NCBI RefSeq assembly: GCF_014334325.1
Contig: NZ_JACSET010000003.1
Span: 248,001 to 312,000 of the forward strand
Length of the DNA: 64,000 nt
Direction: 5' to 3'
Source of the DNA: Treponema sp. Marseille-Q4130
GTDB taxonomy: Bacteria > Spirochaetota > Spirochaetia > Treponematales > Treponemataceae
Below the pieces are notes generated by a model. The model saw nothing but the letters and a program-made list of their open reading frames with translations. It searched no databases and was not told the DNA's origin. Both the position numbers and the translations under genes were made by a program. Below, piece after piece: positions 1,089-10,385 of this stretch (position 1 is its first letter; each line of letters begins with the position of its first letter).

Positions 1089-2099
1089 CTATTCGGTACG
1101 GGACGTGAACGGGGACGATATTCCGCTCGATTCCCGCACGATCATCGACGGTGCGTACACGGTGCCCGTTTGCACATCTTTTTTCGAGATGATGTCGAGG
1201 AGTTTTTCCGCAGCGGTTTCTCCGATCCGGGATGCGTTTTGCGAAACTGTCGTCAACGCGACTTTGCACAGTTTTGCGAGCTTTATGTCGTCGTAACCGA
1301 TGACGGAAACCTGTTCGGGGATCCGTATGCCGCTTTCGATCAGTTTGTGCAGCGCTCCGATCGCAACGTTGTCGTTCGTGATAAAGAGCGCGGTTTTTAC
1401 CGTATCGATGCGATTCTTTTTTATTAAAATCGGAACGAGATTTTCTCCGTTTTCAAATGTACTTATGTGTTCATAACGGACGGCGCGCTTCGATTTCAGC
1501 GCGGCAAGGCAGCCGTTTACTCTGTCCGTAATCGTTTGGTGTTCGAAGCCCGATACGACGATGTACTGCTTTACGCCGAGTGTGTTCATGTATTCGCCTG
1601 CGAGTGCGCCTCCTGCAAAATTGTCGGATGCGACGTAGGGGCATCGGTGCGAATCCGGGATGCAGTTGAATACGACGAGCGGTATCTTCGCTTTTAACAG
1701 CATATTGATGCTTTTGCTCGAACTCGAAAGCGGGGCGAGCAGCACGCCGTCCGCACGTTTGCTTATGAGCGAGCGTATCTGCGCGCTCTCTTTTTCGGCG
1801 ATCCATTGTGACGAATGGATTTCGAGCGAATATCCGTGTGCGGAAAGTACGCGGTCGACTCCTTCGAGAATTTCGACGAAAAAGAAATTCGCCATTTCGT
1901 TGATGACGATGCCCACGGTTTTTGTCGGCGTACCGCTGAGGTTTTGTGCGATCGTACTCGGCACGTAATTTTTTTTGCGGATGACGCGCTGTACTTTTTC
2001 TCTCGTTTCCGCTTTGACGATCGACGGATTCGTCATAACGCGGGAAACGGTCGATTTCGATACGCCGGCTATGTGTGCAACATCGTTGATGGTGATCAT
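1089..2099 (-). CDS. LacI-family transcriptional repressor
   Basis: 336 residues. The N-terminal helix-turn-helix reads TINDVAHIAGVSKSTVSRVM, followed by the hinge helix region VPSTIAQNLSG that inserts in the operator minor groove. The rest is a periplasmic-binding-protein-like effector domain (VGIVINEMANFFFVEILEGVD... near the start, VSVIGYDDIKLAKL near residue 270). It is divergent from the kinase/importer cluster on its right, and two near-identical palindromes lie on the promoters of that cluster, so it is very likely their repressor, released by the imported sugar or a metabolite of it. The start at 2099 is set by the leaderless promoter just upstream, with -10 six bases before the ATG. 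Confidence 0.9.
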   Translation of the reverse strand: MITINDVAHIAGVSKSTVSRVMTNPSIVKAETREKVQRVIRKKNYVPSTIAQNLSGTPTKTVGIVINEMANFFFVEILEGVDRVLSAHGYSLEIHSSQWIAEKESAQIRSLISKRADGVLLAPLSSSSKSINMLLKAKIPLVVFNCIPDSHRCPYVASDNFAGGALAGEYMNTLGVKQYIVVSGFEHQTITDRVNGCLAALKSKRAVRYEHISTFENGENLVPILIKKNRIDTVKTALFITNDNVAIGALHKLIESGIRIPEQVSVIGYDDIKLAKLCKVALTTVSQNASRIGETAAEKLLDIISKKDVQTGTVYAPSMIVRESSGISSPFTSRTE

Positions 2100-2105
2100 A
2101 GAATT

Positions 2106-2134
2106 ATTATCACCCGTATTTTGCCGTTTTGCAA
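2106..2134 (-). promoter_or_regulatory. Promoter of the LacI-type repressor gene
   Basis: Read on the minus strand: TTGCAA (2134-2129), a 17-base spacer, GATAAT (2111-2106), then 6 bases to the ATG at 2099. There is no Shine-Dalgarno, which suggests a leaderless mRNA. It lies back to back with the promoter of the plus-strand operon. Confidence 0.6.
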
Positions 2135-2148
2135 CTTAAAATTTTTTA

Positions 2149-2177
2149 TTGACAGACGGCCGGACATGCCCTATGAT
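2149..2177 (+). promoter_or_regulatory. Promoter of the kinase/phosphatase operon
   Basis: A near-consensus promoter: TTGACA (2149-2154), a 17-base spacer and TATGAT (2172-2177). The last base of the -10 touches the palindromic operator, so a bound repressor would block open-complex formation. Confidence 0.85.
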
Positions 2178-2200
2178 TTAATGAAACCGGTTTCATTAAA
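2177..2200 (+). promoter_or_regulatory. LacI-type operator (perfect 24-bp palindrome)
   Basis: The core TAATGAAACCGGTTTCATTA (2179-2198) is a perfect palindrome that extends two further base pairs each side. The central CG flanked by AAAC/GTTT-type arms is typical of LacI-family operators. It overlaps the end of the -10 and the predicted start of transcription. A close variant occurs at 5417-5438. Confidence 0.85.
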
Positions 2201-2211
2201 AAGGTGAAAAT

Positions 2212-4098
2212 ATGACCCTTTCGTTTTTGGATCAATTCGATGAAGCGGCTTTGGCGTCCGCATCCGTTGCCGTTATCGGCGATATCTGTATCGATCATTA
2301 TTATTTTACCGATTCGGCGGTATCCGAAATTTCCGTAGAAACGGGGCTCGAAACGGTATCGGTTAAATCGAGCGAGTATTATCTCGGAGGCGCGGGCAAT
2401 GTTGCCGAAACGCTTCGGACGCTCGGCGTCGGCAAAGTCGATCTCTACGGCGTTTCGGGCTCGGATGCCGAAGGCGCGATTTTGGAAGCGCTGTGCAAAG
2501 AACGCGGAATTTCGACTTCCGGCATCATCGTACAAAAAACGGACTGGCAGACGAACATGTACCACAAAATTATTAAAGACGGAAAAGAGCTGCCCCGTTT
2601 CGATTTGGGAAATTTCAATGTCGTTTCCGAAGCGACGCAAAACGAACTGCTCGAAAAACTCGATGCGTCGCTTTCCGAATACCGTTGCATCATCGTAAAC
2701 GAACAGCTGCTTTCCGGTTTGACGACCGACCGTTTTATACGCGAACTCAATAAACGTATCGCTTCGACTTCGGGAAAAATCATGTGGCTCGTCGATACGC
2801 GGCACCGCATCGGAAGTTATGAAAACGTCGTCTACAAGATGAACGAGCGTGAAGCGCTCGCGTATTATAACGGAAAAGCCGGAAGCGAACGCTCGGTCGA
2901 AAAAGCCGCCGCCTCTCTTTCGGCGCGCTGGATGCAGCCGATCGCCGTAACGCTCGGCAAAGAAGGCGCGCTCGCAGTGCAGGACGGCAAAAGCCGCCGT
3001 GCACTCGGCATAGATTTTACGCAGCCGATCGATACGGTCGGAGCGGGAGATGCGTTTATTGCTTCGATGGCCGCGGCCCTCGTTTCGGGGCTTTCGTTTT
3101 TCGATGCCGTCGATGCCGCAAACCTCGGCGCATCGGCAAGCGTTTTGACGATGTATCGGACGGGGCATCCTTCGCTTTCCGATATGCGTTCCGTCGCGCA
3201 CAATGCGATGTTTCGCTATCATCCGGAAATTGCGAGTTATACGGAAAAGCCGCGGACGCTTCCCGATTCGTACATCGAAATTATCGACGAAGCGGCATTC
3301 GAAAATCGCCGTGTCTATCCGCAGGTTGCGATCTTCGATCACGACGGAACGATCAGCGTACTGCGGCAGGGCTGGGAAAGTGTCATGGAAGCCGTCATGG
3401 TCGAAGCGGTGACGCAGGATGCGAGCGCGGATGAAGGTATGCGGAAGCGCATCACGGCGGACGTCAAAGAGCTTATCGATAAAACGACCGGTATTCAGAC
3501 GATCATTCAAATGCAACTGCTCATCCCGATCATAGAAAAATACGGGCTCGCAAAGACAGTCCGTTCTGCGGAGGAGTATAAAGCGATATTCGTCCGGCGC
3601 TTAAAACAATCGATGCAGGAAAAAGTCGGTGCGCTGCGTCGCGGTGAATTGAATGCCGACGACGTAACGATAAAAGGAGCTCGGGATTTTTTGCAAACGC
3701 TTTTTGAAGCGGGGACGAAATTGTATTTGGCGAGCGGCAGCGATCACGACGACGTCGTGCGCGAAGCGGAACTGCTCGGCTATGCGCATCTGTTTACCGG
3801 AGGCATCTTCGGTTCGGTCGGCGATCCTGAAAACGATCCGAAAAAAATCGTCATTCAAAAAATTATTAAAGAGCTTGCAGGGCGGGGTATCCGTCCGGAA
3901 GGCTGCGCGGTTTTCGGTGACGGGCCGGTCGAAATGCGCGAAGCGCACGAAAACGGATTTTTTGCAGTCGGCGTTTTGTCCGACGAAAAACAGCGCTTCG
4001 GCGTCAATCGGGCAAAGAGAGCGCGCCTCGTGCTTGCGGGGGCGGACGTATTGATTCCCGATTTTTCGCAGATACGCCGCATTTACGGCGGGGCGTAA
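2212..4098 (+). CDS. RfaE/PfkB-type sugar kinase fused to a HAD phosphatase
   Basis: 628 residues in two domains. Residues 1-340 form a PfkB-family kinase most like the RfaE (HldE) kinase domain: VIGDICIDHYY near the N-terminus, LGGAGNVAETLRTLG, and the catalytic motif DTVGAGDAF at 274-282 with Asp280 as the base. Residues from about 370 are a haloacid-dehalogenase domain: FDHDGT with Asp376/Asp378, the SGSDHDD second motif and a C-terminal FGDGPVEM metal-binding motif. The nucleotidyltransferase domain of HldE is absent and a phosphatase stands in its place. The pair could phosphorylate a heptose-like sugar at one position and remove a phosphate at another, as in heptose activation, or serve catabolism of the sugar imported by the neighbouring ABC system. 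First gene behind the operator-controlled promoter. Confidence 0.8.
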   Translation: MTLSFLDQFDEAALASASVAVIGDICIDHYYFTDSAVSEISVETGLETVSVKSSEYYLGGAGNVAETLRTLGVGKVDLYGVSGSDAEGAILEALCKERGISTSGIIVQKTDWQTNMYHKIIKDGKELPRFDLGNFNVVSEATQNELLEKLDASLSEYRCIIVNEQLLSGLTTDRFIRELNKRIASTSGKIMWLVDTRHRIGSYENVVYKMNEREALAYYNGKAGSERSVEKAAASLSARWMQPIAVTLGKEGALAVQDGKSRRALGIDFTQPIDTVGAGDAFIASMAAALVSGLSFFDAVDAANLGASASVLTMYRTGHPSLSDMRSVAHNAMFRYHPEIASYTEKPRTLPDSYIEIIDEAAFENRRVYPQVAIFDHDGTISVLRQGWESVMEAVMVEAVTQDASADEGMRKRITADVKELIDKTTGIQTIIQMQLLIPIIEKYGLAKTVRSAEEYKAIFVRRLKQSMQEKVGALRRGELNADDVTIKGARDFLQTLFEAGTKLYLASGSDHDDVVREAELLGYAHLFTGGIFGSVGDPENDPKKIVIQKIIKELAGRGIRPEGCAVFGDGPVEMREAHENGFFAVGVLSDEKQRFGVNRAKRARLVLAGADVLIPDFSQIRRIYGGA

Positions 4099-4236
4099 TC
4101 GGTGCGCGATTTTCGCTATCCGTTTCGTACATCGATTGAATAGCATGGTTTGAAAATAAATAAAATTATGCGGAGACAGCGTTGTATCGATTGGGATGAT
4201 ATTTTTATCGGTTAATAATTTTTGATAAGGAATGCC

Positions 4237-5343
4237 ATGAGTGCGATGAAATTGTTCGACAGGTCGGAGATGCGCTATTTCCCGCTGTCGGAAAGGAAAA
4301 ACAAAGTTTTCATCGAACGCGATTACGTCGATGAAAAAACGTATAAAAGCAACGCATCTCCCGAATTGCGCCTTCGCGCCGAATGCATTGCGGACGAATT
4401 GCGGAAAGCGAAAGAGGCGGGCGCTTCCCGTATGTGCGCATTCGGCGCGCACGCGATCAAAAACGGGCTCGGTCCGCTGCTTTCGAAATTCGTTGCGGAA
4501 GGATGGTTTACGCACCTTGCAACGAACGGCGCCGGCGTCATCCACGATTGGGAATTTGCGTTTCAGGGACAAAGCAGCGAAGACGTCCGCGCGAACGTCG
4601 TGCTGGGACAGTTCGGCACGTGGCAGGAGACGGGCTTTTCGATCAACGCGGCGATCGCCGCAGGCGCATACGAAGGGCTCGGTTACGGAGAAGCCGTCGG
4701 CAAAATGATTTCGAAAGGCGGCATCGATATTCCGTCGTCCGAAGTGCTTGAAAAGGTCGTCTGCGATAAAAACGCTCCGCTTTCAAAACGTGCGGCGGCC
4801 GCCGATTTTCTCGATGAGATACGTTCCCTCGATCTGCCGGAAGGGCGCTTTTTGGCGATAGCGCATCCGTATAAGCGTTTCAGCGTACAGGCTGCCTGCT
4901 ATGAAAACGGCGTGCCGTTTACCGATCATCCGATGTTCGGCCACGATATCATCTATACGCACAAAGCGAATAAGGGAGCTGCGATCGGGAGGACGGCGGA
5001 AGTCGATTTTTTACGCTATGTTGCATCGGTGAGCGGTTTGCAAAACGGCGTGTATTTGTCGATCGGATCGGCGGTGATGAGTCCGATGATTTTTGAAAAA
5101 GCGCTGTCGATGGCGAGGAACGTTGCGATTCAAAACGGGCAAGAGATCCGGGACGCCGCGATCCACGTATTCGATTTGCAGCGCGAAACATGGGATTGGG
5201 GAAAGGGCGAGCCGCCTGCGGATAATCCCGCGTATTACCTGCGCTTTATGAAAACGTTCAGCAGGATGGGCTGCCCCGTCGATTACACGTCGGCCGATAA
5301 TCGCGACGTATTGGTCGAGTTGTACAGGGCGCTGCACCGGTAG
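4237..5343 (+). CDS. Deoxyhypusine-synthase-like enzyme of unknown substrate
   Basis: 368 residues from the ATG at 4237, which has AAGGAA at a proper distance; a TTG at 4222 would lengthen it by 5 residues. The sequence recalls the deoxyhypusine/homospermidine synthase fold: LATNGAGVIHDWE corresponds to the glycine-rich NAD-binding segment, a block ENGVPFTDHPMFGHDI resembles the substrate region, YLSIGSAV resembles the second glycine-rich strand, and WDWGKGEP (321 onwards) matches the position of the catalytic lysine (Lys323). No eIF5A substrate is expected in a bacterium, so the protein more likely does NAD-dependent, lysine-assisted chemistry on a small molecule. It is 138 bases downstream of the kinase/phosphatase and upstream of the importer, so its substrate is probably sugar-derived. 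Assignment is by eye and uncertain. Confidence 0.5.
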   Translation: MSAMKLFDRSEMRYFPLSERKNKVFIERDYVDEKTYKSNASPELRLRAECIADELRKAKEAGASRMCAFGAHAIKNGLGPLLSKFVAEGWFTHLATNGAGVIHDWEFAFQGQSSEDVRANVVLGQFGTWQETGFSINAAIAAGAYEGLGYGEAVGKMISKGGIDIPSSEVLEKVVCDKNAPLSKRAAAADFLDEIRSLDLPEGRFLAIAHPYKRFSVQAACYENGVPFTDHPMFGHDIIYTHKANKGAAIGRTAEVDFLRYVASVSGLQNGVYLSIGSAVMSPMIFEKALSMARNVAIQNGQEIRDAAIHVFDLQRETWDWGKGEPPADNPAYYLRFMKTFSRMGCPVDYTSADNRDVLVELYRALHR

Positions 5344-5388
5344 CCGGCGATTTGTTTTCCGGCCGCCGATTCGATGTAAAAAAATTCT

Positions 5389-5417
5389 TTGACTTTTCGA
5401 AAATGAAGCCGTATAAT
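5389..5417 (+). promoter_or_regulatory. Promoter of the RbsABC-type importer operon
   Basis: TTGACT (5389-5394), a 17-base spacer and a consensus TATAAT (5412-5417). The operator starts on the last base of the -10, the same geometry as at 2149-2200. Confidence 0.85.
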
Positions 5418-5438
5418 TTATGGGAACGGTTTCATAAA
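5417..5438 (+). promoter_or_regulatory. Second LacI-type operator
   Basis: TTTATGGGAACGGTTTCATA followed by AA is an imperfect palindrome. Its core ATGGGAACGGTTTCAT differs from the core of the operator at 2177-2200 at two positions, both in the left arm. The shared site and identical placement indicate one repressor for both promoters. Confidence 0.75.
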
Positions 5439-5470
5439 TCGGAGACTGTTTCAGAGAACGAGGGGCTCTT

Positions 5471-7003
5471 ATGAATCAAAAAGTAATTGTGGATATGCAA
5501 CATATCTACAAATCGTTTTTCGGCGTGCATGCACTCGACGATGTGTCGTTCGAATTGCGAGAAGGCGAAGTGATGGCGCTGCTCGGCGAAAACGGAGCAG
5601 GAAAATCGACACTTGTCAAAATCATCTCCGGTGTCTACACGCGCGACGAAGGCAGCATGAAGCTTTTCGGCAAAGACACCGAAATAAATCTTTCGCCGAA
5701 AAAAGCGCAGGAACTCGGCGTTACGATCATCCATCAGGAACTAAATATGTGCGGGCATCTGACAGTCGCGCAGAATATTTTTTTGGGACGGGAACTGTGT
5801 AGAGGTTCCGTGCTCAACGAACGGGAGATGAAAAAGCGCACGCAGGAAGTGCTCGACGAATTGCAGATGGACGACATCACGCCGGATACGGTTGTCGGCA
5901 ATCTTCAAGTGTCGAAGCAGCAGATGGTCGAAATCGCAAAAGCGTTTCACACGAATGCGAAGATTTTGATCATGGACGAACCGACGTCCGCGTTGACGAG
6001 CAAAGAGATCGATCGGCTGTTCGGTATTATTAAATCGCTGAAAGAAAAGGGTGTCGGCATCATCTATATATCGCACCGCCTCGAAGAACTGCAGGATATC
6101 GCCGACCGCGTGACGATCATGCGTGACGGAAAATTTATCACACGCGGTAATTTTAAAGATATGCGCATGGACGAAATTATTAAAAATATGGTCGGCCGCG
6201 AAATCAAAGAAAAGTTTCCGCGCATATCGACGCCGAAGGGCAAAAAAATATTTTCAATTAAAAATCTTTCGTCGGGTAAAATGGTGCGCGACGTATCGTT
6301 CGACGTATACGAAGGCGAGATTCTCGGCATTGCGGGGCTTATGGGAGCGGGACGGACGGAGTCGACGCGCGCGCTGTTCGGAGTCGACGCGAAAGACGGC
6401 GGCACTATCGAACTCGACGGCAAAGAGATCTTCGTCAACTGTCCGACCGATGCGATCAGGCAGGGCGTCGTGCTTGCTCCCGAAGATAGAAAAAAAGACG
6501 GACTGTGTACGAAGCTTTCGATCAAAGAAAACATCGCGCTGCCGAATCTCGATATTTTGTGCAACCGCTTCGGCATCATCGACCGGAAAAAAGAAGCGGC
6601 GATGCTCAACAATGCGGTAAAGCGGCTGTCGCTGAAGATGGCAGGCGGCGATAAAGACGCGGCATCCCTTTCCGGCGGCAACCAGCAAAAGCTCGTTGTC
6701 GCGAAGTGGCTGTTGCGGGAAAGCCGCGTTATCATATTCGACGAGCCGACGCGCGGTATAGACGTTGCGGCAAAAGTCGAAATATACAATCTTATGAACA
6801 AGCTCAAGCAGGAAGGAAAGGGCGTCGTGTTCGTGTCGAGCGAACTTCCCGAAATTTTAGGCGTGGCGGACAGAATCGTCGTTCTGTGCGAGGGACGTGT
6901 GACGGGAGAGATGCCCGCATCGGAAGCGACACAGGAAAAAATATTATATCTTGCGACGCGTTTTCTTAATAAAAAAAGCGAAAAAGAGGAAAAAGCAGTA
7001 TGA
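5471..7003 (+). CDS. Sugar ABC importer ATPase, RbsA type (two ATPase domains)
   Basis: 510 residues with two ABC domains. The first has Walker A GENGAGKST, signature LQVSKQQMVEIAKAF and Walker B ILIMDEPTSAL. The second has the degenerate Walker A GLMGAGRTE and the signature LSGGNQQKLVVAKWL with IFDEPTRGID, the usual asymmetry of RbsA/MglA/XylG proteins. The enzyme energises uptake through the permease encoded next, whose start overlaps its stop by 4 bases. The ATG follows a GAACGAGGGGC ribosome-binding region. The substrate is not readable from the sequence; the neighbouring kinase suggests a pentose, hexose or heptose. Confidence 0.93.
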   Translation: MNQKVIVDMQHIYKSFFGVHALDDVSFELREGEVMALLGENGAGKSTLVKIISGVYTRDEGSMKLFGKDTEINLSPKKAQELGVTIIHQELNMCGHLTVAQNIFLGRELCRGSVLNEREMKKRTQEVLDELQMDDITPDTVVGNLQVSKQQMVEIAKAFHTNAKILIMDEPTSALTSKEIDRLFGIIKSLKEKGVGIIYISHRLEELQDIADRVTIMRDGKFITRGNFKDMRMDEIIKNMVGREIKEKFPRISTPKGKKIFSIKNLSSGKMVRDVSFDVYEGEILGIAGLMGAGRTESTRALFGVDAKDGGTIELDGKEIFVNCPTDAIRQGVVLAPEDRKKDGLCTKLSIKENIALPNLDILCNRFGIIDRKKEAAMLNNAVKRLSLKMAGGDKDAASLSGGNQQKLVVAKWLLRESRVIIFDEPTRGIDVAAKVEIYNLMNKLKQEGKGVVFVSSELPEILGVADRIVVLCEGRVTGEMPASEATQEKILYLATRFLNKKSEKEEKAV

Positions 7004-8019
7004 GTGAAATGCAAAAAGAAAATCCCGTAAAGCGTCTTTTTGAAATTCGCGGCATGGGACAAGTGCTCACCGTCACGGCGGGGCTTATCGTGCTGAGTAT
7101 CGCGTTCGGCATCGTAAACCCCGTATTTTTCAGCAGCCGCAACGTCGGAAACCTTTTGCGCCAAATCGCACCGATACTGCTCATCGGTATAGGGCAGTCG
7201 TACGTACTCATTACCGGCAACATCGATTTGTCGATAGGCTCGCTTATCGGCATGAGCTGTATGATCAGCGCGACGCTTATGACCAAAGGTGTGAACCCGT
7301 GGGCGGCTGTCGTGATCACGCTCGTGTGCTGCCTCGCCATAGGTGCCGCAAACGGATTGCTCGTCGCGCTGTGCAAGCTGCCTCCGTTTATCGCGACACT
7401 CGGTACGATGACGATCGCGCGCGGCATTGCGCAGATCGCGAACGGCAACTACAATACCGATTCGATCGGAGAAGCGGCGGAAGGCTTCCGCAATTTTTTC
7501 TATTACGGAAAAACGCTCGGCTTTTACAATACGATTTGGATAGCGATCGTACTGTGGTTCGCTTTTAATTTTATATTGACGCGGACGCGGACGGGCCGCC
7601 ATATCTACGCGATCGGATCGAATGTCGAAGCGGCGCGGCTTTCGGGCGTCAACATCGTGTCGACGACGCTGAAAGCGTATCTCGTGTCGTCGTTCGTTTC
7701 GTGTGTAGTCGGCCTTATCACGTGTGCGACAAGCGGCATGGGTACGATGGACAGCGGAAACGCGTACGAATTGTATGCGGTCGCGGCGTCCGTTATCGGC
7801 GGCGTATCGACGCTCGGAGGACAAGGACTTTTGTTCGGTACGGTTATCGGCGCGTCGATTTGGGGCGTGCTGCAAAACGGATTACAGTTTGCGGGTGCAC
7901 CGGTCGCGATCAGAAATATCGTTATCGGCATTATCGTTATCCTTTCGGTATTGCTCGATATCATCGTGCGTACCGGTCGTCACGTCGGCAAAAAATCGGC
8001 AAAGAATTCCGCTGCATAA
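7000..8019 (+). CDS. Sugar ABC importer permease, RbsC type
   Basis: 339 residues, strongly hydrophobic with 8-10 membrane segments. It carries family marks of BPD_transp_2 permeases: ITGNIDLSIGSLIGMS early, the GANGLLVALCKLPPFIATLGTM region in the middle, ARLSGVNI and ASVIGGVSTLGGQG later. It would form the inner-membrane channel with the preceding ATPase and accept substrate from the binding protein that follows. It overlaps the ATPase gene by ATGA, indicating translational coupling. Confidence 0.93.
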   Translation: MSEMQKENPVKRLFEIRGMGQVLTVTAGLIVLSIAFGIVNPVFFSSRNVGNLLRQIAPILLIGIGQSYVLITGNIDLSIGSLIGMSCMISATLMTKGVNPWAAVVITLVCCLAIGAANGLLVALCKLPPFIATLGTMTIARGIAQIANGNYNTDSIGEAAEGFRNFFYYGKTLGFYNTIWIAIVLWFAFNFILTRTRTGRHIYAIGSNVEAARLSGVNIVSTTLKAYLVSSFVSCVVGLITCATSGMGTMDSGNAYELYAVAASVIGGVSTLGGQGLLFGTVIGASIWGVLQNGLQFAGAPVAIRNIVIGIIVILSVLLDIIVRTGRHVGKKSAKNSAA

Positions 8020-8040
8020 AATGCAGAGAATATATTATTA

Positions 8041-8058
8041 ATTATTATTAATAATAAT
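8041..8058. repeat. AT-only 18-bp palindrome between permease and binding-protein genes
   Basis: ATTATTATTAATAATAAT is a perfect palindrome made only of A and T, inside a longer TAT/TAA run (8030-8060). It precedes the AGGAGG ribosome-binding site of the binding-protein gene. A weak RNA hairpin or processing site that lets the binding protein be made in excess is possible but unproven. Confidence 0.4.
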
Positions 8059-8077
8059 AGACAATCAGGAGGAAATT

Positions 8078-8983
8078 ATGAAAAAAGGTATTACCTTTAT
8101 CATCGCAGCGCTTCTTTTGGCGGGATCCGTATTTGCAAACGGCAAACAGGATGCGGGTTCGAAAAAAGTTTATTTGATCACGATGGATCAAATGGACCAG
8201 CACTGGGTCAACGTCAATCAGGGTTGCGAAAAGGCGGTAAAAGAAATCGGCGGCATCACGTACAAGTGGCTTGCTCCCGATGTAAAAGACGACAACAAAC
8301 AGATCGAGTGCATCAACAATGCGGTCGCCGACGGTGCGAATGTTATCCTGCTTGCGGCAAACGGTCCGACGGCGGTGCAGTCCGCGTTGAAAGAAGCGGT
8401 CGCGGCGGGCGTTAAGCTCATTTATGTCGACAGCCCTGCGAATTTTCCCGGAGAGCAGACGCTCGCGACGGACAATAAAGCAGCAGGCGTAACGGCGGGC
8501 AAAGAGCTTATCAAAGCGCTTTCGGCAAAGGGTATTACGTCTGGCTCGATCGGCATCATCAACACGAATGCAGCAACGACGTCAACGCTCGACCGCGAAA
8601 ACGGATTCCGCAGCGCGTTTGTCGGAACGCAGTTCAAAATCCTTGCAACGCAGTACTGCGAAGGCGACGCAGCGCGTTCGAAAGATGCCGCGTCGAATTT
8701 TATCGCGCAGGGTTGTGTCGGTCTTTTCGGTGCGAACGAAGGTTCGACGGTCGGTGTGGGAAGCGCGATCGCCGAGTCGAACGGCGCTGCAGTCGGCGTC
8801 GGTTTCGATAAATCCGATATGATCATGAATTTGATCCAGCGAGGTTCTCTCATTGCGACGATGGCGCAGAACCCCGACGTGATGGGATACGAAGGTATGA
8901 AGAGCGCTGCAAAAGTACTCAACGGTGAAAAGGTCAGCCCCGCCTACTATGATACGGGCGTTTCCGTTTTGACGAAAAAATAA
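8078..8983 (+). CDS. Periplasmic sugar-binding protein, RbsB type
   Basis: 301 residues. The N-terminus MKKGITFIIAALLLAGSVFA is a cleavable signal peptide with no lipobox, so the mature protein is probably periplasmic. The mature part is a Peripla_BP_4 fold: VYLITMDQMDQHWVNVNQGCEKAV, ADGANVILLAANGPTAV and IGIINTNAATTSTLDRENGFRSAF are the usual strand/loop blocks. It captures the substrate for the RbsAC-like membrane part. AGGAGG lies 5-10 bases upstream of the ATG. It is the last gene of the operon; a strong terminator follows. Confidence 0.92.
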   Translation: MKKGITFIIAALLLAGSVFANGKQDAGSKKVYLITMDQMDQHWVNVNQGCEKAVKEIGGITYKWLAPDVKDDNKQIECINNAVADGANVILLAANGPTAVQSALKEAVAAGVKLIYVDSPANFPGEQTLATDNKAAGVTAGKELIKALSAKGITSGSIGIINTNAATTSTLDRENGFRSAFVGTQFKILATQYCEGDAARSKDAASNFIAQGCVGLFGANEGSTVGVGSAIAESNGAAVGVGFDKSDMIMNLIQRGSLIATMAQNPDVMGYEGMKSAAKVLNGEKVSPAYYDTGVSVLTKK

Positions 8984-9035
8984 ACGTGCCGAATGAGCGT
9001 GTGAGAATTTAAAAATATCGTAATGTAATCGATCA

Positions 9036-9068
9036 GCCCCGGCGCTCTGCGCCGGGGCATTGTATTTT
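9036..9068 (+). terminator. Rho-independent terminator of the importer operon
   Basis: A 10-bp perfect GC stem, GCCCCGGCGC (9036-9045) with GCGCCGGGGC (9049-9058), loop TCT, followed by ATTGTATTTT. Confidence 0.85.
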
Positions 9069-9242
9069 AAACGCTTGCACGAATATGCGTTTGACAAGTG
9101 CCGGTTATTGTATTCCTGTTGCAAAGTGTGAACCGCTGCTCTCATCAACAGCTGCGCCCGCAAAATTGCGACAGTCGCTTCCAAAGCGCGGTATTCAAAT
9201 ACGCGGAGTTTTCTTCTCGATCCTACGCCGGATGCGGAGGGC

Positions 9243-9267
9243 GCACTCGCAGATCTGCTGCGAGTGC
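9243..9267. repeat. Hairpin in the gap between convergent genes
   Basis: The stretch 9069-9422 between the importer terminator and the ROK gene end holds no credible gene. It contains one perfect 10-bp inverted repeat, GCACTCGCAG / CTGCGAGTGC with a 5-base loop, without a T-run on either side. Short open frames here lack ribosome-binding sites and family features. Confidence 0.45.
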
Positions 9268-9422
9268 GGTGCGGTAGCACGGAAACCCCGAAGCAAGCCG
9301 GTTCTTCCGAAAGTCCCGTCCTAAAAAAATTTTTATTCGTGCGGCGACACATCCGTATCCGATCGCGTCAGTCCGCACCCGTTCGATCGGGTTGTATATG
9401 CTCCCGAACCCGAACAATTCGC

Positions 9423-10385
9423 TTATCCGTTTTTGCAAGCGGCGGCTATCGCGGCATAATCGCCGATGGCGTTTCCGAGCGCGGCGGGTACGATGCGGCA
9501 GCTTTTTCGCGGAACTTCGAGCGCTTCTCTTTCTACGGTGAGTTCCATCGAAGCGCGCAAAAGATTTTCCGAGCGTGCGAAAATGCTTCCGATGACGATG
9601 CATTCGGGATTTAATAAATCGATCAAAAGGGCGAGTCCCCGTCCGAGGTATTCTCCGGATCGCGCGTAGATGCGCCGTGCGAGCTCGTCTCCGGAATCGG
9701 CCGCCTCCGCGATCGTTTTTGCGGTGATCGCTTCGTCCGGTACGGCAAACAATACCGATCGTTCGCCCGATTTTTTTGCATCCGACACCATCGATCGACC
9801 GAGCCGCGCGATGCCGCCTCCGGAACAGAATCCCTCAAACGATCCGCGCTTTCCGTAACCGAGCGGTCCTTCTTCCGCAAGTCTGATGTGTCCCGCTTCT
9901 CCTGCGAGTCCGTTCGTACCTTCATAGAGCCTGCCGTCGAGGATGAGTCCCGCTCCGAGTCCCGTACCGAAGGTCAAAAATATGAGATTGCGCGTACCCT
10001 TTCCCGCACCGAATTTCCACTCGGCGACGGTGCATGCGTTCGCATCGTTTTGCAAAAATGCGGGAACGGAAAGCCGCGTTGAAATATAGTCTGTAATGGG
10101 GACTGCATCCCAGCCGGGAAGATTCGGCGGCGACATGACAAGCCCCGCCTTTTCATCGAGCGGACCGCCGCAGCTGATACCTGCCGCCGCCGGATGCAGC
10201 GAGTGTTCGGCGATGATGTGTTTTGCCGCAGCGATAAGCGCATCGAGCGTTTTTTGCCACGGTACGCGGCCTGTGGCGATCTGCTCCCGTGCGATAATCG
10301 TACACGCATCGTTCGCCCAATCCGCACGTGCGGCGACGACCGCGCATTTCGTTCCGCCGATATCGAATCCGATGTAATCGTTCAT
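9423..10385 (-). CDS. ROK-family sugar kinase
   Basis: 320 residues. MNDYIGFDIGGTKCAVVAA is the N-terminal phosphate-binding ATPase loop of ROK glucokinase-like enzymes; FLQNDANACTVAEWKFGAGKG contains the catalytic Asp, and LTFGTGLGAGLILDGRLYEGTNGLAGEAGHIRL is the ROK signature. The usual zinc-binding CXCGXXGC loop reads GYGKRGSFEGFCSGGG, so the cysteine cluster is mostly lost, and the protein may not bind zinc. It has no DNA-binding domain, so it is a kinase rather than an NagC-type repressor. Convergent with the importer operon, it may phosphorylate the imported sugar. Probable leaderless start at 10385. Confidence 0.88.
   Translation of the reverse strand: MNDYIGFDIGGTKCAVVAARADWANDACTIIAREQIATGRVPWQKTLDALIAAAKHIIAEHSLHPAAAGISCGGPLDEKAGLVMSPPNLPGWDAVPITDYISTRLSVPAFLQNDANACTVAEWKFGAGKGTRNLIFLTFGTGLGAGLILDGRLYEGTNGLAGEAGHIRLAEEGPLGYGKRGSFEGFCSGGGIARLGRSMVSDAKKSGERSVLFAVPDEAITAKTIAEAADSGDELARRIYARSGEYLGRGLALLIDLLNPECIVIGSIFARSENLLRASMELTVEREALEVPRKSCRIVPAALGNAIGDYAAIAAACKNG

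Follow-up and report, generated by a model that had tools for sequence, protein, structure and literature searches.

The overall fold of deoxyhypusine synthase (DHS; Pfam DS, PF01916) is common to the LOR/SDH-AgrE ornithine cyclodeaminase domain, and members of this fold use nicotinamide adenine dinucleotide (NAD) in a redox-neutral way. Of DHS itself an invariant catalytic lysine in a WGK motif is expected. The ADP-heptose pathway (GmhA, HldE, GmhB) combines an isomerase, a C1 kinase and a HAD phosphatase, GmhB being a small HAD protein without a cap, and mannoside loci of Bacteroidota hold GH38 and GH92 genes together with a mannose 2-epimerase and an SSS carrier. All of these bear on a locus in a 64,000-nucleotide stretch of Treponema sp. 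Marseille-Q4130 (contig NZ_JACSET010000003.1, positions 248,001 to 312,000; hereafter the window), where a DHS-like gene of the NCBIfam "GSU2086 family" follows a gene for a kinase/phosphatase fusion in a sugar uptake operon. The name of that family assigns no function. One paper names GSU2086, as hypothetical, and the open-access literature of one library gave us no description of a DHS-like sugar enzyme.

Sequence, predicted fold and comparison between genomes together bring out two promoters that form one regulon, a module of kinase, HAD phosphatase and DHS-fold protein that recurs, and importers that are interchangeable. Many bacteria have this module, in some cases next to mannose-releasing enzymes, and it is often accompanied by a GmhA-like isomerase and a ROK kinase; its spirochaete copy is a repressor-controlled sugar uptake operon. 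We suggest, at a probability of about 0.45, that the operon is a LacI-repressed one for the uptake and processing of a monosaccharide, in which a manno-sugar module includes an NAD-type step performed by the DHS-fold enzyme. Pfam and NCBIfam scans covered nine proteins from the region, and the genes lie as an earlier note, made from the sequence alone, had placed them:

1089-2099, minus strand: LacI-family repressor, 336 residues (PF00356 and Peripla_BP matches)
2177-2200, no strand assigned: putative LacI-type operator, a perfect 24-base palindrome between lacI and the kinase-HAD gene
2212-4098, plus strand: kinase/phosphatase fusion, 628 residues (PfkB 113.9 bits, HAD 45.7 bits)
4237-5343, plus strand: DHS-like protein of the GSU2086 family (NF052581), 368 residues from its ATG
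5417-5438, no strand assigned: putative second operator, an imperfect copy of the first, ahead of rbsA
5471-7003, plus strand: RbsA/XylG-type importer ATPase, 510 residues (ABC_tran, two stretches)
7000-8019, plus strand: RbsC-type permease, 339 residues (PF02653)
8078-8983, plus strand: RbsB-type periplasmic sugar-binding protein, 301 residues (PF13407, 149.2 bits)
9423-10385, minus strand, convergent: ROK sugar kinase, 320 residues (PF00480, 184.1 bits)

The core of the module is the pairing of the kinase-HAD fusion with the DHS-like protein. A genome collection yielded 396 pattern-matched stretches, 379 of which encode DHS-like relatives. The best 80 were fetched, so that the nearest relatives are over-represented, and many of their contigs are cut short. 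With the window added, and with L064 and L081 left aside because the open reading frame (ORF) caller missed their DHS-like frames, 79 loci were compared. A kinase-HAD gene lies no more than two genes from the DHS-like gene in 49 of them and adjacent to it in 48, the window being counted in both. It is immediately upstream in 47 loci, with a gap of at most 13 bases in 41 of these; in the window 138 bases separate the kinase-HAD gene from the ATG of the DHS-like gene. The phyletic profile is independent of gene adjacency and provides a separate test. The DHS-like protein scores above its cut-off in 29 of 390 Spirochaetota genomes, and the HAD partner (E 1e-20 or better) in 23, all of them among those 29 and none among the other 361 (Fisher 6e-32, not corrected for kinship; the 23 genomes span 17 genera). 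The pairing is real. The earlier note had named two observations that would speak against its grouping of these genes, an unrelated fold for the DHS-like protein and a splitting of the genes into unrelated sets in other genomes; both were looked for and neither was seen.

Other partners are looser. Neighbours were counted within eight genes on either side by BLAST cluster, only cluster representatives being identified with Pfam. Across the 79 loci this gives a GmhA-like isomerase in 32, ROK in 22, LacI in 21, the N-acetylglucosamine-2-epimerase family in 17, an SSS carrier in 15, two MalFG-type permease clusters in 13 and 10, GH38 in 12, and GH92 and an RbsA-type ATPase in 7 each. Of the trio with RbsABC that the earlier note proposed to look for elsewhere, the kinase-HAD/DHS-like set is kept and the importer is not: relatives have MalFG-type ATP-binding cassette (ABC) importers, SSS or MFS carriers instead, which rules RbsABC out as an obligate partner. 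A further recurrent operon enzyme was sought with Pfam in 70 of 116 unlabelled operon neighbours, and none emerged, the top families (3-keto-disaccharide hydrolase and Gfo/Idh/MocA) matching only three members each. LacI relatives at 40-51% identity accompany these genes in spirochaete loci and in certain others, and many clusters contain ROK relatives at 44-57%. The system is uncommon in the window's own genus, where its carriers in the Spirochaetota surveys are the window's genome and G228. A housekeeping-like context is seen in four loci (L034, L046, L049, L076), where the DHS-like gene follows the gene for an 876-residue alanyl-tRNA synthetase (identified by Pfam in L046, cluster 25); three of these four genomes carry the HAD elsewhere.

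What kind of protein is the DHS-like partner? It is 96% identical to its counterpart in Treponema socranskii ATCC 35536 and belongs to NF052581 (308.6 bits against a cut-off of 250), a family in which we count GSU2086 itself on the strength of the family name. No Pfam model matches it above cut-off, DS scoring 11.3 bits against a gathering cut-off of 27. By the Pfam profile its likeness to DHS thus falls short of the cut-off, but in the predicted fold the likeness is clear. DS is matched at E 1 or better by 41 of 43 aligned family members (best 3.4e-5), and a sequence search of PDB gives weak matches to the C-terminal domain of AgrE/ArgZ and to DHS over residues ~43-114, chitoporin chains matching equally weakly. 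An AlphaFold 2 model built from 43 sequences has a mean pLDDT (predicted local distance difference test) of 92.1 and a pTM (predicted template modelling score) of 0.90. Foldseek gives 94 matches with E no higher than 0.001, and the 50 shown are all DHS (including 7cmc at E 5e-8, 8put and 1dhs) or LOR/SDH-ArgZ/AgrE (including 3c2q and 6lrg), each at probability 1.00. Their template modelling (TM) scores to the query are only 0.36-0.48, which together with that probability indicates the DHS fold in a distant member. As modelled, the 368-residue protein clearly has a DHS-type overall fold, as the earlier note had supposed, and alignments reveal an NAxxxHDxE-like stretch common to it and AgrE.

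The chemistry of DHS does not follow from this fold. The earlier note took the lysine of WGK (residues 321-323) as catalytic, a candidacy now ruled out by poor conservation: of 79 long forms, 43 have Lys, 12 have Gln and 11 have Arg at position 323, the rest showing other residues or gaps. The lysine is no family trait, and our claim is accordingly limited to the fold. Residues invariant in a 43-row alignment (the window and 42 of the 80 loci; L003, for its in-frame stop, and L071 were dropped from the first 45 rows) include H72, K75, N97, H103, D104, E106, D237, H242, K288, N295, W319, W321 and G324-P327. The family also has a short form of ~305 residues, beyond which the long form of the window carries ~50 extra residues in one stretch, and WGK is absent from all five short forms read. 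With hhalign a short form reaches 96.5% probability against true DHS from its own phylum and 100% against the long form; global hhalign of the long form against true DHS gave no alignment (probability 0.1), the true DHS sequences having been chosen by their WGK motif. DHS-like proteins inside larger fusions (open frames of up to 946 residues) were considered and set aside, since in L122, the only one inspected, the fusion seems to be an artefact, GC-rich DNA having left a long frame open. Each of the DHS-like frames of L108 and L003 is interrupted by an in-frame stop, perhaps through gene decay or misassembly.

The fusion consists of an HldE-like PfkB kinase (residues ~1-335) and a C1-capped HAD phosphatase (~336-628), in agreement with the earlier description, in which a phosphatase replaces the nucleotidyltransferase beside an RfaE-like kinase; Pfam finds no nucleotidyltransferase in the nine proteins of the window that were scanned. 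As a PfkB sugar kinase it scores well above the Pfam cut-off of 25.8 bits, and GAGD is present in the aligned kinases. Its nearest PDB match is 4e84, a heptose-7-phosphate kinase (E 9.5e-14); against HldE domain I (rfaE_dom_I, TIGR02198) it reaches 137 bits, under the cut-off of 345. HldE/rfaE models are also the best-scoring ones for the short-form kinases of L112, L149 and L150, none of which reaches a cut-off. The HAD domain has no PDB match by sequence at E 0.01. Its model (pLDDT 91.6) bears a helical insert at the cap position and matches C1-capped phosphatases and beta-phosphoglucomutases, with TM 0.46-0.62 among the matches shown, so that the domain as modelled is not of the GmhB type. 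Residues D14, D16, S146, K182 and D208 are invariant in a 30-row alignment (A5: the window and 29 of 41 listed HAD domains); another (A3) comprised the window, 18 of the 41 and two short-form loci. The convergent ROK kinase belongs to PF00480 and scores 174.1 bits against the 260.35 of ROK glucokinase TIGR00744; the PDB chains closest to it are glucokinases.

The GmhA-like isomerase also falls short of its curated model (TIGR00441: 145.7 bits in L007 and 166.6 in L053 against 209.45). The E-L and QExH motifs, which have a catalytic role in GmhA, are kept in both and in the orthologue of this genome when aligned with E. coli GmhA; in short-form isomerases E-L reads D-F or D-L and QExH is not kept. 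A further isomerase alignment (A4) comprised that of this genome and 17 of 32. The long-form orthologue of this genome is unlinked, at G000:C11, and 54.6% identical to that of L007; it is preferred to an isomerase on C10, which is only 29.5% identical to the cluster isomerases and was rejected as the missing part. The C11 gene sits in a phosphonate glycan locus (L151, 8095-15949) with a phosphoenolpyruvate mutase/cytidylyltransferase, a thiamine pyrophosphate enzyme, a nucleoside triphosphate transferase/aminotransferase and two glycosyltransferases. The C10 gene (L147, 9186-12638) has a permease-like gene and an ABC transporter ATPase as neighbours.

The importer is, by its sequence, RbsABC in type only. 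The ribose equivalog cut-offs of NCBIfam are missed by RbsA (549 against 745 bits), RbsC (181 against 398) and RbsB (84 against 337), and none of the ribose, xylose and other sugar-importer equivalogs listed in that scan reaches its cut-off.

The lacI gene is divergent from the kinase-HAD gene, and the earlier note had read the two palindromes as matching operators of one regulon. A 22-base pattern built from both, TTWATGRRAMCGGTTTCATWAA, has exact sites nowhere else in the whole genome (Treponema-like, 2,793,901 bases), which has one further site at three mismatches; the reversed control pattern has none. The case for the operators depends on these long exact matches and their positions, and not on the count of cores in the window. 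It is supported that 2177-2200 and 5417-5438 would fit one LacI protein, giving two promoters in one regulon. With up to three mismatches allowed, the genome pattern search revealed no additional operator by the ROK gene. Of 14 loci with LacI near the orthologous kinase-HAD gene, each judged from its two best palindromes, six (a raw count) have a like palindrome close to the start of that gene: ATGTAAGCGGTTACAT in L004 and L006, ATGTATACGGTTACAT in L010, ATGAAAGCGGTTACAT in L011, ATGAAACCGGTTACAT in L017 and ATGAAAGCGGTTTCAT in L018. T. socranskii (L002) has a close form, ATAAAACCGGTTTCAA. Among the two best palindromes of L005, L007, L012, L016, L039, L053 and L061 there is no like one.

Clues to the sugar come from the neighbourhoods of relatives. 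GH38, GH92 or the 2-epimerase family occurs in 25 of the 79 loci, in 23 of the 49 kinase-linked ones, about half, and in two of the 30 unlinked. Such loci belong to Spirochaetota (for example L003, L004, L011, L016-L018 and L024), Bacteroidota (for example L023, L033, L035, L038, L053, L056, L060-L062 and L074) and a few others (L019, L068, L070); Bacteroidota mannoside loci that house relatives of the module include L033, L038, L053 and L074. The 2-epimerase of L053 matches PDB 8h1k, which we take to be the mannose 2-epimerase of Runella slithyformis, at 673 bits, and that of L004 is 59% identical to it. Work on the Runella enzyme is cited in PMC13363691. With mannosidases and a mannose-type epimerase in relatives, mannose is the most probable sugar for the catabolic versions. 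The earlier note's guess of a heptose or an amino-sugar derivative retains the resemblance of isomerase and kinase to heptose enzymes, but the catabolic neighbours point to mannose. Short forms occur beside RbsABC-type and Gfo/Idh genes in L149 (a Chloroflexota plasmid, with DeoC) and L112 (G309), and L187 has the gene run HAD-DHS-SIS-kinase-ROK. For type I phosphomannose isomerase the genome holds no match to PF01238, a weak test since that model is a 48-position C-terminal piece.

A manno-sugar scheme may be sketched from these parts. RbsABC would import a free sugar of manno configuration, mannose being the most probable; the ROK kinase would phosphorylate its distal carbon and the HldE-like kinase would add a phosphate at C1, after which the fused HAD, resembling beta-phosphoglucomutase, might take off one of the two. 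The DHS-fold protein could then epimerise, isomerise or rearrange the phosphosugar through redox-neutral use of NAD, and the product might feed central metabolism or glycan synthesis. The isomerase of this genome would be the unlinked orthologue on C11. Such phosphate shuffling by distal kinase, C1 kinase and phosphatase is common to heptose activation and, by analogy, would fit a manno-sugar. Being common to catabolic and biosynthetic versions, the DHS-fold enzyme probably acts on an early phosphosugar that both share, of six or seven carbons, and probably works by its transient oxidation with NAD. The chance is perhaps a little short of even that the DHS fold has been recruited to carbohydrate metabolism, for an NAD-dependent, redox-neutral step on the phosphosugar product of the fused C1 kinase and phosphatase, in a branch of mannose or heptose metabolism that has yet to be described.

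A number of observations weigh against this proposal. The window locus itself has no GH38, GH92 or 2-epimerase gene, and in contrast to the Bacteroidota loci no SSS carrier. Where an epimerase followed by ROK makes a mannose route, the kinase-HAD and DHS-fold enzymes are left without a necessary step, and ROK with a sugar-phosphate isomerase would likewise already account for mannose use; to our knowledge the DHS-fold and kinase-HAD steps belong to no known mannose route. Six of the 29 DHS-like-positive Spirochaetota lack the HAD (short forms in G106, G161, G174 and G189; long forms in G079 and G086). Among 30 genomes without a kinase-HAD gene near the fetched DHS-like gene, 20 carry the HAD elsewhere (one merely as a fragment), and in the other ten, all metagenome assemblies, it was not found. 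The long-form isomerase, present in 25 of the 29 positive genomes, also occurs in 57 of 361 negative ones, which rules it out as specific to the module and gives it a wider role. The 14-base operator core at up to two mismatches is found four times in the window against 3.41 expected, the level of chance. In Solidesulfovibrio (L150) a short form belongs to a surface-glycan cluster that also includes a NeuB gene and an HldE-type kinase/adenylyltransferase, the short forms L114-L117 have no recognised partner nearby, and the 70 scanned long-form operon neighbours include one match each to CTP_transf_3, Epimerase_2, DegT and UDPG_MGDP_dh; the reaction is hence not solely catabolic. Lastly, we infer the binding and use of NAD from the predicted fold alone; the substrate and the step of the DHS-fold enzyme are likewise proposals.

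If the module instead serves a manno-sugar of seven carbons (scavenged heptose or sedoheptulose), importer or ROK would provide heptose-7-phosphate, the GmhA-like enzyme would interconvert it with sedoheptulose-7-phosphate, HldE-like kinase and HAD would make heptose-1-phosphate, and the DHS-fold enzyme would epimerise. We consider this possible but unlikely. Geobacter hldE, GSU2086 and gmhA have consecutive locus tags and, in the electrode-growth table of one report, fitness values of -3.1, -3.2 and -3.7 (PMC5585712). The kinases of the window and of three short-form loci are nearest to HldE/rfaE models and the isomerase to GmhA, making the ADP-heptose enzymes the nearest kinase and isomerase families of the module, and in Solidesulfovibrio the DHS-like gene is paired with the HldE-type kinase and adenylyltransferase protein and a SIS gene. 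Yet kinases, adenylyltransferase domain and isomerases all stay under the curated heptose cut-offs, and catabolic loci have mannosidases and a mannose-type 2-epimerase. Unlike the ADP-heptose pathway, moreover, the module has its phosphatase fused to the kinase and C1-capped, of the beta-phosphoglucomutase type and not of the GmhB type, and the window locus lacks a nucleotidyltransferase and has the DHS-fold enzyme in addition.

Somewhat more doubtful still is that the operon salvages a sugar for surface polysaccharide and not for burning. The glycosyltransferase locus around the isomerase orthologue, the cluster of NeuB and cytidylyltransferase around a short-form relative and the single nucleotide-sugar neighbours would suit such a role, to which LacI control together with an importer, the mannosidases and 2-epimerase of many relatives and the lack of a nucleotidyltransferase among the scanned window proteins are opposed. 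It is very improbable that a genuine synthase of deoxyhypusine or homospermidine has come to lie beside sugar genes by chance. Such an enzyme would have the same fold and the WGK seen in the window protein; its lysine would not be expected to vary, nor WGK to be missing from short forms, nor the DS score to be so low, and the tight phyletic tie to the HAD also speaks against it. Ten of 197 Spirochaetota have a separate DS-family protein, and a GSU2086-family protein is present as well in two of these ten (G171 and G174). A family with no assigned function, found in 379 pattern-matched stretches of one genome collection, gains precise partners and a testable pathway. If the DHS-fold enzyme acts on sugars, another kind of reaction would be added to the fold of hypusine formation and ornithine cyclodeamination, and spirochaetes, Bacteroidota and others would possess a so far overlooked branch in their use of mannose-rich glycans.

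Two neighbouring regions may be mentioned. At 120-986 the window encodes a thioredoxin-reductase-like flavoprotein (167.9 bits, far under the TrxR cut-off of 343.45). Just upstream of the window (L148, 614-6883, G000:C12) lies a second sugar ABC system with a LacI-like regulator of 722 residues, a solute-binding protein and two MalFG-type permeases, and the same stretch also encodes a 233-residue protein that looks by eye like a metallo-beta-lactamase.

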